A stretch of 53,233 nt of DNA. Origin: Treponema sp. (GTDB taxonomy: Bacteria > Spirochaetota > Spirochaetia > Treponematales > Treponemataceae). The first letter of the stretch is position 1; every line of letters starts with the position of its first letter. The stretch lies in the NCBI GenBank assembly GCA_012520945.1, contig JAAYNH010000072.1, positions 1-53,233 on the forward strand, written 5' to 3'. The position numbers and the translations under genes were made by a program. Below, piece by piece: positions 16,814 through 22,092 of the stretch. The notes beneath the pieces are model-generated. The model saw only the letters and a list, made by a program, of their open reading frames with translations, had not been told where the DNA came from and made no database searches.

Positions 16814-17815
16814 TTATGCTTGGAGGGCTGTTACAGCAACCGTTGCAACAATATCTTCAACTGTACAACCGCGCGACAAATCATTAAGAGGTTTTGCAAA
16901 ACCTTGACAAATTGGGCCTATTGCCATCCAGCCACCCATGCGTTGTGCGATTTTATATCCAAGATTTCCTGCATTGATATTTGGGAATACGAATACGTTT
17001 GCACGTCCGGCAACTTTTGAGCCGGGAGCTTTCAGCTCACCCACTTCCGGTGCAACGGCGGCATCAAACTGAAACTCGCCATCTAACGATAATTCCGGTG
17101 CTTTTTCCATGGCGATTTTTGTTGCTTCTTGCACTTTTGATACCGTTTTGGAAAATTTATCATCGTTTCCGCTACCTTTTGTTGAAAAAGAAAGCATGGC
17201 CACTCGCGGTTCAATGCCGCCGATTTTTTTTGCCGTGTCTGCTGTTGCTATAGCGATGTCCGCCAATTGTGCAGCATCCGGTTCAATATTTATGGCACAA
17301 TCTGCCATTAAGCAAACGCTTTCAGGAATGTACGGATTTCCTCCTTCCGGAGCAACCATTATAAAACTTGATGAAACCGTCGATATACCGGGTGCTGTTT
17401 TTATTACTTGTAAACCCGGTCGTAGTGTATTTGCCGTTGAGTGACATGCTCCTGAAACATAGCCGTCGACATCTCCTGCTTTTAGCATAAGTGCACCGAA
17501 CATTGTGCGGTCTTTTGCCTGTTTGCCGGCTTCTTCTTCCGTCATGCCTTTTGCTTTACGTGCTTCATAAAGAATTTTTGCATATTCAACTGTTTTTTCA
17601 GATGTTTCAGGGTCAACAATTTCAATACCCGTCAAATCAACGTCCGGTGCAACTTGTTTGCATTCATCTTCATTACCTATCAAAACGATTTTTGCAATGC
17701 CTGCTTTAACAATTATTGACGCAGCTTCAACGACGCGTTTGTCTTCGCCTTCGCAAAGAACAATTTTTTTTCCTGCTTTTGCAGCTTTTTCCTCTAATTT
17801 TTTAACGAAGTTCAT
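16814..17815 (-). CDS. pta: Phosphate acetyltransferase
   Basis: A 333-residue enzyme interconverting acetyl-CoA and acetyl phosphate, the short form lacking the N-terminal regulatory domain of enterobacterial Pta. Family motifs: IVLCEGEDKRVVEAA, YVSGACHSTANTLRPGLQVIKT, MLSFSTKGSG, FVFPNINAGNLGYKIAQR. With an acetate kinase elsewhere it would provide fermentative ATP. A strong Shine-Dalgarno site (TTGGAGG) precedes the ATG. It lies 37 bp after the DJ-1 gene and is probably read from that gene's promoter. Confidence 0.96.
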   Translation of the reverse strand: MNFVKKLEEKAAKAGKKIVLCEGEDKRVVEAASIIVKAGIAKIVLIGNEDECKQVAPDVDLTGIEIVDPETSEKTVEYAKILYEARKAKGMTEEEAGKQAKDRTMFGALMLKAGDVDGYVSGACHSTANTLRPGLQVIKTAPGISTVSSSFIMVAPEGGNPYIPESVCLMADCAINIEPDAAQLADIAIATADTAKKIGGIEPRVAMLSFSTKGSGNDDKFSKTVSKVQEATKIAMEKAPELSLDGEFQFDAAVAPEVGELKAPGSKVAGRANVFVFPNINAGNLGYKIAQRMGGWMAIGPICQGFAKPLNDLSRGCTVEDIVATVAVTALQA

Positions 17816-17852: not shown

Positions 17853-18407
17853 TTAATATAATGTACCTAAAGTAACTTTTTCAGCTACTTCTTTACCGCA
17901 TAATTTTTCAATAATTGCAAAAGCAAAATGACTTGCGGTTCCCGGTCCGCGCGAAGTAATTAAATTTTCGTCAACAACGACAGGAGCTATCTTATGATTT
18001 CCTTTACAATTTGGAATTTCTTTTTCCATTTCAGGATAACATGTAAAATCTTTTCCGTCTAAAATTCCAAGCGGAGCTAAAACGACAGCGGGAGCCGCAC
18101 AAATTGCACAAACTAATTTTCCTTTTGCAAAAAAATCTGTCAACAAGTTGCCCACTTTTAAATTTGCCGCCAATGCATTTGCTCCGGCCATTCCTCCGGG
18201 AATAACAACAGCATCGGCATTGCTATCAACTTTATCAAAAGTCGAATTTGCACAAAGAGAAATGCTTCTACTTCCGGTAACAATCGGATTTGTACCTTCT
18301 ACTGCCACCAAATCAACTTCAATTCCTGCTCGACGCATTAAATCAGCAGGCACCACAGCTTCAATTTCTTCGAAACCGTTCGCTAAAAGAATTATTGCTT
18401 TTTTCAT
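17853..18407 (-). CDS. DJ-1/PfpI superfamily protein (YajL-like)
   Basis: A 184-residue DJ-1 family protein. The conserved acidic residue (E16 in GFEEIEAV) and reactive cysteine (C103 in VCAICAAPAVVLAPLG) are present, as is SRGPGTASHFAFAI near the end. Family members have been described as oxidative-stress proteins and as glyoxalase or deglycase enzymes; the precise role here is not determinable. The ATG at 18407 is chosen over a GTG at 18422 because the promoter -10 hexamer ends 7 nt before it and overlaps the region of the GTG. It diverges from the response-regulator gene and precedes pta. Confidence 0.88.
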   Translation of the reverse strand: MKKAIILLANGFEEIEAVVPADLMRRAGIEVDLVAVEGTNPIVTGSRSISLCANSTFDKVDSNADAVVIPGGMAGANALAANLKVGNLLTDFFAKGKLVCAICAAPAVVLAPLGILDGKDFTCYPEMEKEIPNCKGNHKIAPVVVDENLITSRGPGTASHFAFAIIEKLCGKEVAEKVTLGTLY

Positions 18408-18408
18408 A

Positions 18409-18437
18409 TTGTAAATATACACTTTTTACGTTATTAT
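18409..18437 (+). promoter_or_regulatory. Promoter of the REC-STAS-REC gene, predicted leaderless
   Basis: TTGTAA (18409-18414), 17 bp, TATTAT (18432-18437); the ATG at 18444 is exactly 7 nt after the hexamer. No Shine-Dalgarno site is present. It lies almost on top of the DJ-1 promoter on the other strand. Confidence 0.65.
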
Positions 18438-18442
18438 GTATA
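18414..18442 (-). promoter_or_regulatory. Promoter of the DJ-1 gene, predicted leaderless
   Basis: On the minus strand TATACA (18442-18437), 17 bp, TATATT (18419-18414); the ATG at 18407 is 7 nt after the hexamer. The -35 is weak but the -10 is good. It shares DNA with the opposite promoter, whose -10 touches this -35. Confidence 0.5.
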
Positions 18443-18443
18443 T

Positions 18444-19691
18444 ATGAAACATGTTTTGTTGGTTAATGCACCTCTATTATTCCGCGAATTTCTCAAAGAT
18501 AAACTTTCTGCAGAACGTGTTTCAATTGACATTGCACAAGGACGTCGCGATGCTTTCACAAAAATGATTTCAACGCTACCGAGTTTAATTGTTCTAGATA
18601 TTTCCAATTCTATTCGCGATATTGTCGATTTTCTTGAAAAAAAACGCCAAGATCCGAACGCCGCATTAATTCCAATTATTATTACAGGTCCCGTTATGTC
18701 ACGTGAACAAGTTGCAATGCTTCAACCTTATAATGTTGTAAAATATTTTAATAAACCCATAAATTTTGACGTTTTTTTTGAAGCAATCGGTAGATTAGTA
18801 AAAATTGCAATAAATATAGACAAAACACCTTGCATATTGGAGACTCATGTTAACGGAAATATTATATTCATAGAAATTGCTCAAGAATTAAACAGAGACA
18901 AACTTGCCTTACTTAAATATAAACTTTCTGAAATTATTGATGAAAACAATATTTCAACACCTAAAGTTGTAATCATGCTTACAAACTTATCCTTAACTTT
19001 TGTTGACGGTTCAAACTTAGAAATTTTATTTAATAATGTTATTGCAGATACACGAATTCAAAAACGAAACATAAAAGTTCTTTCTCTGGATAAGTTTACA
19101 AAAGATTTTATTGAAGGACATACTGAATATAGCGGGATTGAAGTTACTACAAATCTTTCACAAGTATTGCACAGTTTAATAGAAAACCACGAAAAAATTG
19201 ACATTGCAGACTTAATTAACGATAAAATCTTATCATCAGAACGGCACATTTCAGAAGGTACAGTCCAAACGCGATTTTATACCGAAAGTATGCAAGCCGA
19301 TGCTGCTCAAACTTTTAACGATGGTTTTAAATATCATATCGCATTACTTGACGATGACACATATACAAAAACAATTTTGATGAATATTTACGGTTCAATT
19401 GGTGCTAAAGTATACTTTTTCGATTCCGGTGCCGAATTTATTGCAAGTACAAAAAAACTCATTTATGATTTGGTTGTGCTGGACATTATGATGTACGGAC
19501 TTTCCGGTTTTGATATTTTAACAAGTATGCATAGCGAAAAATATCCTTCACCGTTTTTAATTTATTCTAATACAACGAATCGCGATGTAATTATGCAAGC
19601 TCTTAATCTTGGAGCCAAAACTTTTTTAATCAAGCCCCAACAACCTGAATTTATCCTGCAAAAATCTTTAGAACTTTTGTCAAGAAAATAG
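18444..19691 (+). CDS. Response regulator with REC-STAS-REC layout
   Basis: A 415-residue soluble protein with three parts. Residues 1-125 form a receiver-like domain with the phospho-acceptor-type D52 (LIVLDIS) and a KP pair near 104, but the acidic pair near the start is missing (VNAP), so it is probably degenerate. Residues about 135-250 resemble a STAS domain (sulfate transporter/anti-sigma-antagonist), with a strand-helix pattern around VVIMLTNLSLTFVDGSNL. Residues about 297-415 are a complete receiver: LLDDD (302-305), D347 and K397. There is no DNA-binding domain, so output is probably by protein contact. It is followed 11 bp later by a hybrid kinase, its likely partner. Confidence 0.8.
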   Translation: MKHVLLVNAPLLFREFLKDKLSAERVSIDIAQGRRDAFTKMISTLPSLIVLDISNSIRDIVDFLEKKRQDPNAALIPIIITGPVMSREQVAMLQPYNVVKYFNKPINFDVFFEAIGRLVKIAINIDKTPCILETHVNGNIIFIEIAQELNRDKLALLKYKLSEIIDENNISTPKVVIMLTNLSLTFVDGSNLEILFNNVIADTRIQKRNIKVLSLDKFTKDFIEGHTEYSGIEVTTNLSQVLHSLIENHEKIDIADLINDKILSSERHISEGTVQTRFYTESMQADAAQTFNDGFKYHIALLDDDTYTKTILMNIYGSIGAKVYFFDSGAEFIASTKKLIYDLVVLDIMMYGLSGFDILTSMHSEKYPSPFLIYSNTTNRDVIMQALNLGAKTFLIKPQQPEFILQKSLELLSRK

Positions 19692-19702
19692 AGGTTAATT
19701 TT

Positions 19703-21265
19703 ATGCCTGAAAATTATTTTAAGGGAAGTTTTTTAGCATCAACTCTTCACGAAATTCGCACTCCCATTCAAACAATTATTGGAACGCTTGAACTTCTTGG
19801 TGATACAAAACTTGACAAAGAACAACTTGAATACGTACGTCAAATTCAGTTTGGTACAAATGTTCTTTTAACGATAGTAAATGATGTTCTTGATTTTTCA
19901 AAACTTCAATCCGGAAAATATAATATAGAAACAATACCTTTTAATTTAACGAAACTTTGTGAACAAGTTGTGGACTTAATTACAATTGAAGCACATAATC
20001 AAGGACTGGAAATCGTTACCGACATTGACTATACTTTGCCCAAATATATTATCGGCGACCCCACTCGTACGCAACAAATTCTTCTTAATCTTATAAAAAA
20101 TGCTGTCAAATTTACGCCTTCAGGTTACGTTCGTATTATCATTAAAAGCACTGATAACGGCAAATATATTAAATTTCAAATTGAAGATTCAGGTATTGGC
20201 ATTCCGGAAGAAAAACAACAGCAAATTTTCAATGATTTTTATCAAGTTGACGCTTCTACAACAAGAAAATACGGAGGAACCGGTCTTGGTCTAGCAATTT
20301 GCCAAAGTTTGGTAAAAATTTTAGGCGGAAAAATCGGCGTAAAATCTAATAAAAACGGCGGTTCCATTTTTTGGTTTACCCTACCTTGCCTTGAAGCTGA
20401 AGGAATGCCTAACTTGGAAACACCCGTTTATCAACAACAAGATAATATACTCCTTGTTGATGACAATGAACTGGCTTTACAAAGTTTAAAAAACAAACTT
20501 CATTCTCTTGGTTGCAAAAATATTCAAACGACAACTTCAGGTGCTGAAGCTCTGGAAAAACTTTTAGACGCAAGCAAAAACAACACTCCTTTTTCAATTG
20601 CTTTTATTGACATGATAATGCCTGTTATGGACGGCTGGCGTCTTTCAAGCAAAATTACGAATGACAGACGCATCAACAACACAAAACTTTACCTCGTTGT
20701 TCCTGAAGGATTGATGGGTGCAGATGCCAAAATGAAATTACTGGATTGGTTTAACGGCTATCTTTATAAACCTATAAAACGAAATATGCTTGTTTCAGTT
20801 TTAAATGATGCAATTGATGTTCCGATTGACTTGGAAGTTGTTGAGCCGAATTTAGAAACCTTAGAAGCGGTTGATGAAATTCCTGAAGATTTTTTAGCAA
20901 AAGGACTTACATGCCTAGTTGCAGAAGATCATCCTATTAATCAAAAGTTAATTCAAACATTTTTGCAAAGTTTTGGAGCAAGTGTTATAATAGCAAATGA
21001 CGGGCAAGAAGTTATCGATATATATAAAAAAAACACAAAGATAGATATTATTTTTATGGACATTCAAATGCCAAAAAAAAGCGGTCTTGAAGCAACTGAA
21101 GAATTACGTCTTATCGGTTTTAAAGGCACAATAATCGCTTGCACCGCAAACGGTGATTTAAGTGATAGAGAAGCGTATATTAACGGAGGCATGGACGACG
21201 TTCTTGTCAAACCGTTCAAGAAAAAACATATTCAGGAAATTATTGAAAAATGGAAACAAAATTAG
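19703..21265 (+). CDS. Soluble hybrid histidine kinase with two receiver domains
   Basis: A 520-residue kinase with no membrane segment and no sensor domain: the dimerisation domain starts at residue 7 with the phospho-histidine H16 (STLHEIRTPIQT). The ATPase domain (about 105-230) has NAVKFTPSG, DSGIGIP and GGTGLGLAIC boxes. Receiver 1 (about 247-372) has VDDN, D303 and K356; receiver 2 (about 403-518) has EDH, D453 and K503. Signals must come from a partner protein, and the REC-STAS-REC protein just upstream is the obvious candidate. The 3' end overlaps the next gene by 16 bp. Confidence 0.92.
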   Translation: MPENYFKGSFLASTLHEIRTPIQTIIGTLELLGDTKLDKEQLEYVRQIQFGTNVLLTIVNDVLDFSKLQSGKYNIETIPFNLTKLCEQVVDLITIEAHNQGLEIVTDIDYTLPKYIIGDPTRTQQILLNLIKNAVKFTPSGYVRIIIKSTDNGKYIKFQIEDSGIGIPEEKQQQIFNDFYQVDASTTRKYGGTGLGLAICQSLVKILGGKIGVKSNKNGGSIFWFTLPCLEAEGMPNLETPVYQQQDNILLVDDNELALQSLKNKLHSLGCKNIQTTTSGAEALEKLLDASKNNTPFSIAFIDMIMPVMDGWRLSSKITNDRRINNTKLYLVVPEGLMGADAKMKLLDWFNGYLYKPIKRNMLVSVLNDAIDVPIDLEVVEPNLETLEAVDEIPEDFLAKGLTCLVAEDHPINQKLIQTFLQSFGASVIIANDGQEVIDIYKKNTKIDIIFMDIQMPKKSGLEATEELRLIGFKGTIIACTANGDLSDREAYINGGMDDVLVKPFKKKHIQEIIEKWKQN

Positions 21266-22092
21266 TATTTAGAGAACAAAATTACAAAAAATGTAACTTC
21301 CACACTCACAGTTTATTTTGTGACGGGAAAAATACATTAGAACAAATGGTTCAAAGTGCAATAGATAGAAACTTTGACCAATTAGGTTTTTCTTCACATA
21401 CAATGTTTCCCGGTAAAACAAACTGGCATATGTGTCCCGAAAATTATTTTACATATATTTTATTGGTGAAAAAATTAGCAAAAAAACACAAAGGAGTTAT
21501 CGACATTTTTTGTGGTCTTGAAGCAGATTACATTCCGGGTTTTACTGTCCCAAGTTACAAAACATACGAACTATTTGACATAGATTTTATGATTGGTTCT
21601 GTACATTATATTTATTTTGATAAGGGAAAACGCTTTACAATTGATGGTCCCGTCGATGAAGTTGCACAAGGCTTAAATGAAGTTTTTGCAGGTGATGGAA
21701 AAAAATATGTGCAAACTTATTTTGAATTGCAAAAACAAATGGCAAAAAATTTTGATTTTGACATAATTGCACATCCGGATTTAGTACGAAAAAGAAACGA
21801 TGTTTTACATTTTTTCAATGAAAACGATGGATGGTACAAACGTGAATTAGAAGATGCCGCAAAAGTTTTTGCACAAAGCGGTAAAATTGTTGAAATTAAC
21901 ACAGGAGGTATGGCACGAGATGATCTCAAAGACGCATATCCTTCCGATGATTTTTTGCGGCTTTTGTACAAATACGATGTTCCAATTATGATAAATTCCG
22001 ATTCTCACAGTTTTGAAACTCTGGACTTTGCATTTGATTTTGCAAAAACCAAAGCTCAAAACATCGGTTATGATAAATTTATGTGTTTTTAA
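21250..22092 (+). CDS. PHP-domain phosphatase, histidinol-phosphatase (HisJ) type
   Basis: A 280-residue metal-dependent phosphoesterase. The PHP metal motifs are visible: FHTHSLFCDG near the start, SSHTMFP, GLEADYIPG, IGSVHYI, IIAHPDLVRK and NSDSHSFETL near the end. The closest family is histidinol phosphatase of the HisJ/HisK type, which makes histidinol, but no other histidine gene is here, so another substrate is possible. It overlaps the kinase gene by 16 bp and its stop abuts the dksA-type stop on the other strand with no gap. Confidence 0.85.
   Translation: METKLVFREQNYKKCNFHTHSLFCDGKNTLEQMVQSAIDRNFDQLGFSSHTMFPGKTNWHMCPENYFTYILLVKKLAKKHKGVIDIFCGLEADYIPGFTVPSYKTYELFDIDFMIGSVHYIYFDKGKRFTIDGPVDEVAQGLNEVFAGDGKKYVQTYFELQKQMAKNFDFDIIAHPDLVRKRNDVLHFFNENDGWYKRELEDAAKVFAQSGKIVEINTGGMARDDLKDAYPSDDFLRLLYKYDVPIMINSDSHSFETLDFAFDFAKTKAQNIGYDKFMCF

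Follow-up and report, generated by a model that had tools for sequence, protein, structure and literature searches.

The window, a stretch of 53,233 nucleotides from a Treponema sp. contig, contains an intergenic region of 36 bp from which two divergent genes appear to be read. The genes around this region and the promoter elements within it are as follows.

16814 to 17815, minus strand: phosphate acetyltransferase gene (pta), identified by domain search, 37 nt past DJ-1, with its own Shine-Dalgarno (SD) site GGAGG
17853 to 18407, minus strand: DJ-1/PfpI family gene (Pfam PF01965, TIGR01383), with no SD
18408 to 18443, no strand: intergenic region of 36 bp with both promoter cores, from the sequence and the ORF calls
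18409 to 18414, plus strand: -35 element TTGTAA of the predicted receiver-gene promoter, where relatives have (C/A)TTGTAA or a variant of it
18414 to 18419, minus strand: -10 element TATATT of the predicted DJ-1 promoter (5/6 match), 6 nt before the ATG at 18407, of the type seen in the genome-wide leaderless class
18432 to 18437, plus strand: -10 element TATTAT of the predicted receiver-gene promoter, 6 nt before the ATG at 18444, with a counterpart at 5–9 nt in 47 of 55 treponeme rows
18437 to 18442, minus strand: -35 element TATACA of the predicted DJ-1 promoter (4/6 match), assessed by a chance test and also present in genome G004, where DJ-1 lies at another distance
18444 to 19691, plus strand: gene for a 415-aa receiver protein with a C-terminal Response_reg domain and a receiver-like N domain (domain search, structure model)
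19703 to 21265, plus strand: hybrid histidine kinase, the next plus-strand gene, with its own SD (domain search)
21250 to 22092, plus strand: PHP-domain (histidinol-phosphatase-like) gene, overlapping the end of the kinase (domain search)

The structure model of the receiver protein shows a receiver-like domain at the N terminus, an alpha/beta domain in the middle, and a receiver at the C terminus; its confidence is low at residues 248–292. The middle domain (residues about 128–245) has no Pfam match and looks STAS-like in the model by the order of its strands and helices. The same region is conserved in treponemes. Neither the domain search nor the structure model gave a recognisable DNA-binding domain in this protein, and autoregulation by it is thus without support. 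On the minus strand, pta lies beside DJ-1 in the window only and not in the relatives examined (flanks of 1.5–3 kb, some contigs being shorter), and it has its own SD, GGAGG, in the 37-nt gap. A DJ-1/pta unit is therefore unproven, and as a conserved unit it was rejected. A GTG start for DJ-1 at 18422 was also rejected, since neither an SD nor a promoter is present there. Searches of 10–26 kb of the window gave no Rfam matches, and the phage records gave no match.

The hexamers lie on both strands at the bases where the earlier note had placed them. The spacer is 17 bp in both predicted promoters, giving TTGTAA-17-TATTAT for the receiver gene and TATACA-17-TATATT for DJ-1. Each -10 does touch the opposite -35, by one shared base pair (18414 and 18437), and the predicted elements of the two genes overlap as in overlapping divergent promoters. 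The -10s themselves are separate, and the predicted starts of the two genes are 37 bp apart. The earlier distance of 7 nt from -10 to start codon holds if the A of the ATG, the usual +1 position, is counted as the seventh base; six bases lie in between. With six bases after the -10, +1 would fall on the A of the ATG, so both mRNAs would be leaderless. An SD is absent at both starts, and the receiver gene and DJ-1 each combine the -10 position and the lack of an SD that mark leaderless genes. We infer the leaderless status of both genes from the sequence.

The promoter of the receiver gene has counterparts in many treponemes. Upstream of this gene, relatives carry (C/A)TTGTAA or a variant of it, followed after 17 bp by a TATNAT-type -10 and, 5–9 nt further on, by the ATG. 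A -10 matching at 5/6 positions ends 5–9 nt before the ATG in 47 of the 55 treponeme rows, which comprise the window and 54 loci and are related rather than independent, compared with 1–8 rows in seven control windows. A TTG is found at spacer 17 in 16 of these 47 rows and at any other spacer in at most one. The promoter is retained where DJ-1 is distant or absent, and hence belongs to the receiver gene. It is missing from the most distant members (L224, L226–L228), which have an SD-like match instead. The plus-strand promoter is almost certainly real and of leaderless type, and it is an old treponeme promoter with a predicted transcript start at the ATG or a few bases from it. Being conserved across treponemes, it provides a clean test case for leaderless expression in this group.

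Leaderless genes appear to be numerous in the genome of the window. The sample covers 1.02 Mb of the 2.19-Mb genome, window included, and holds 738 ORFs that start with ATG and encode at least 100 aa. Of the 356 genes without an SD, 54 are preceded by a -10 (at least 5/6) at a distance of exactly 6 nt from the ATG, where the background is about 5.5 per position (binomial tail 8e-36); the distance is 7 nt in 23 cases and 8 nt in 15. The corresponding count for SD genes at 6 nt is 3 of 382, and internal in-frame ATGs, used as a control, show no peak (0.95% at 6 nt). A -35 (at least 4/6) stands at spacer 17 in 30 of the 77 cases with a -10 at 6 or 7 nt, and in 0–6 at other spacers. The excess at 5–9 nt amounts to ~81 genes, or about 11% of the sampled genes (about one in nine), a share that is an estimate because the ORF starts are mechanical first ATGs. 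Among relatives, each sampled on a small scale, G004 has a clear peak at 6–8 nt, and G015, G028, and G045 have a suggestive one. Elsewhere in the window, the plus-strand starts at 472, 37496, 40920, and 32625 look leaderless as well, each with a -10-like hexamer 6–9 nt ahead of the ATG and without an SD match of at least 4. The genome thus presents a Treponema-like spirochaete with a large class of predicted leaderless genes that is legible from its sequence.

The DJ-1 promoter calls for a comparison with chance. Each promoter pair matches TTGACA/TATAAT at 9 of 12 positions, and sites with this score are common (109 in 18 kb vs 72.6 in shuffles). The score is weak by itself because such scores are frequent locally, and the position relative to the start codons is what counts. 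When the plus-strand elements were held fixed, 0.9–1.3% of randomised sequences contained a minus-strand match that reached 9/12 or better with exactly this geometry, and relaxed geometry (distances 5–8, spacers 16–18) raised this to 3.4–4.7%. What goes beyond chance is where the elements sit with respect to the start codons, together with the leaderless signature across the genome and, for the plus side, conservation. If about one SD-less gene in four or five is taken beforehand to have a leaderless start, and this is set against the 1% chance, the DJ-1 promoter is judged to be probable. The earlier proposal of two leaderless promoters on the same 34 bp is accordingly retained as near certain for the plus side and probable for the minus side.

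Many treponemes carry DJ-1 and the receiver gene next to each other in divergent orientation, 36 to over 1700 bp apart, and nearly all relatives with this neighbourhood have an SD match of at least 4 for DJ-1. DJ-1 lacks an SD in the window (gap 36 bp), in Treponema sp. CETP13 L182 (gap 37 bp), and in L178 and L179 (gap 86 bp), and the SD score is low in L217 (gap 53 bp; GGGGGAAAA). The loci with the two shortest gaps, the window and L182, both have a -10 6–7 nt from the DJ-1 ATG and TATACA 17 bp upstream; the L182 promoter reads TATACA-17-TAAACT and ends 7 nt from the ATG (8/12). The two are not sisters in the receiver tree, in which support near the window is modest. The leaderless DJ-1 arrangement is not conserved among relatives, as L182 alone comes close and most have an SD. 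In a related clade with gaps of 47–49 bp (L050, L219, L220, L221), the receiver -10 TATAAT is also -10-like on the other strand, and DJ-1 there could use the shared -10, with a leader and an SD.

In G004 (L034), the same minus-strand hexamers stand 52 nt from a DJ-1 start that carries an SD and has a nearer and better-placed promoter match. Because G004 keeps them with the DJ-1 start farther off and with an SD, the hexamers may be partly a by-product of the plus-strand promoter, to which the DJ-1 ATG of the window would have moved up until the distance was right. Taken further, the plus-strand promoter alone would be real, the minus-strand hexamers would follow from its conserved bases without serving DJ-1, as they do not serve at the G004 distance, and DJ-1 would be transcribed from inside the receiver gene, where a TTGAAA-18-TATCTT match would give a start near 18489. 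This account needs an SD-less leader of about 80 nt, leaves the exact leaderless distance of the DJ-1 ATG to an accident of about 1%, and meets the same arrangement again in L182; it is unlikely.

The site is likely to consist of two opposed and overlapping sigma-70-type leaderless promoters that are weak and largely independent, and to result from compaction rather than from selection of a switch. Here, we infer both transcript starts, the promoter strengths, and the absence of a switch. Within 36 bp, the two promoters would be superimposed in opposite directions, both giving leaderless mRNA. DJ-1 would have come so close in this species that its leader and SD are gone, a loss placed in this lineage. 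Its -10 would be built from the end of the plus-strand -35 and the start of the plus-strand spacer, with the DJ-1 ATG 6 nt away, and its -35 from the last base of the plus-strand -10 plus bases beyond. As the elements overlap, polymerase would bind in one orientation at a time, provided that both promoters work. If both are weak, as the 9/12 scores suggest, the genes would fire independently with little interference, and one side would be curbed only when the other is strongly activated.

Divergent pairs in the sampled genome bear on this choice. Pairs that are leaderless on both sides number 3 of 92 against 5.9 expected under independence (7 of 92 in a permissive count that allows alternative ATGs), and an enrichment of such pairs was rejected. 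Leaderless sides are more frequent in pairs less than 60 bp apart (44%) than in pairs at 120–400 bp (15%). The lack of an excess of two-sided pairs, together with the richness of close pairs in leaderless sides, points to compaction and not to a selected switch. Two other two-sided pairs of leaderless type occur in the same genome, at L139 12571–12629 (gap 57 bp) and L137 10269–10451 (181 bp). Overlapping divergent promoters with leaderless messages look like a compact layout that is ordinary in this genome. The site illustrates how divergent genes that need no 5' leader can approach each other to the point where their promoters overlap.

A selected switch, in which the orientation of polymerase decides whether the signalling operon or DJ-1 is transcribed, would draw on the coincidence of the two cores, which makes occupancy exclusive if both work, and on E. 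coli bidirectional promoters, where activating one side can repress the other (PMC12825309). In the five E. coli promoters studied, basal transcription is too low for polymerases to compete (Warman et al. 2026, PMC12825309). Relatives differ in the gap (36 to over 1700 bp), the genome shows no enrichment of two-sided pairs, and pta linkage is absent from the other loci examined; a selected switch is consequently quite improbable. Of the earlier note's regulatory reading, one polymerase orientation at a time follows from the overlap if both promoters work, its role as a regulatory switch does not, and the mutually exclusive tie between the signalling system and a DJ-1/pta unit lacks support, as pta has an SD of its own and, among the loci examined, adjoins DJ-1 in the window alone.

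Control of both directions could also come from a regulator bound to the inverted repeat ATATACA-N15-TGTATAT (18415–18421 and 18437–18443). Its 7-bp arms are perfect in the window, TATACA-N15-TGTATA is found in G034, and a central inverted repeat is bound by the regulator at the overlapping lysG/lysE promoters of Mycobacterium tuberculosis (PMC5648196). At this place, the repeat is present in only 2 of 61 orthologues, and complementarity (0.351 vs a permutation mean of 0.325, reached by 95 of 1000 permutations) is not clearly above expectation. A shared operator is extremely unlikely and was rejected, as the inverted repeat is not conserved. The centre of the repeat is 3.5 bp off the midpoint between the two start codons.

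Compaction remains the preferred reading, and the site is unproven as a regulatory device. A further proposal is that the leaderless start of the receiver/histidine-kinase operon has been selected across treponemes and that, where DJ-1 shares the 34 bp, the two messages are coupled by polymerase orientation. This is very unlikely; if true, one weak promoter core would set how much of a signalling system is made relative to a stress protein.

Overlapping divergent promoters form a known class in which the elements are interleaved, as in tetR/tetA, and a repressor acts on both classical promoters. The window has the same interleaving, whereas no repressor was identified in it. The lysG/lysE pair of M. 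tuberculosis is also divergent; its -10 and -35 elements overlap, and the region in addition yields a leaderless lysE transcript (PMC5648196). The pair so resembles the window in its gene arrangement, overlapping elements, and leaderless transcription, which is predicted in the window. In contrast, the lysG/lysE region measures 108 bp, its LysR-type regulator is known, and the leaderless lysE transcript comes from a second promoter rather than from the overlapping one, whereas the window has 36 bp, two sides predicted to be leaderless, and no known regulator.

The E. coli bidirectional promoters share their -10, with starts typically 10, 18, or 23 bp apart (PMC12825309). As in those promoters, a short stretch would engage polymerase in either orientation and one binding event would exclude the other. 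Unlike them, the window has no shared -10: the -10s lie at 18414–18419 and 18432–18437, each has one base in common with the opposite -35, and 37 bp separate the predicted starts.

A small literature search found no report of genes leaderless on both sides of one core in a treponeme, and no relevant papers on leaderless genes in Treponema. Leaderless genes in Spirochaetes and overlapping divergent promoters are both already known. Bacterial leaderless genes have a -10 whose first T is about 12 bp upstream of the start codon and have no SD (Zheng et al. 2011, PMC3160421); they were found in 6 of 18 Spirochaetes genomes, at a mean of 3.9% of genes (PMC3160421). They are common in Leptospira, where the start-site map of Leptospira interrogans contains about 440 mRNAs with a leader of less than 10 nt (PMC5243855). 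The window genes agree with these known leaderless genes in the placement of the -10 and the lack of an SD (PMC3160421, PMC5243855). They differ in that the assignment here is read from sequence, the estimated share is larger (about 11%), and two such genes stand back to back on one core.
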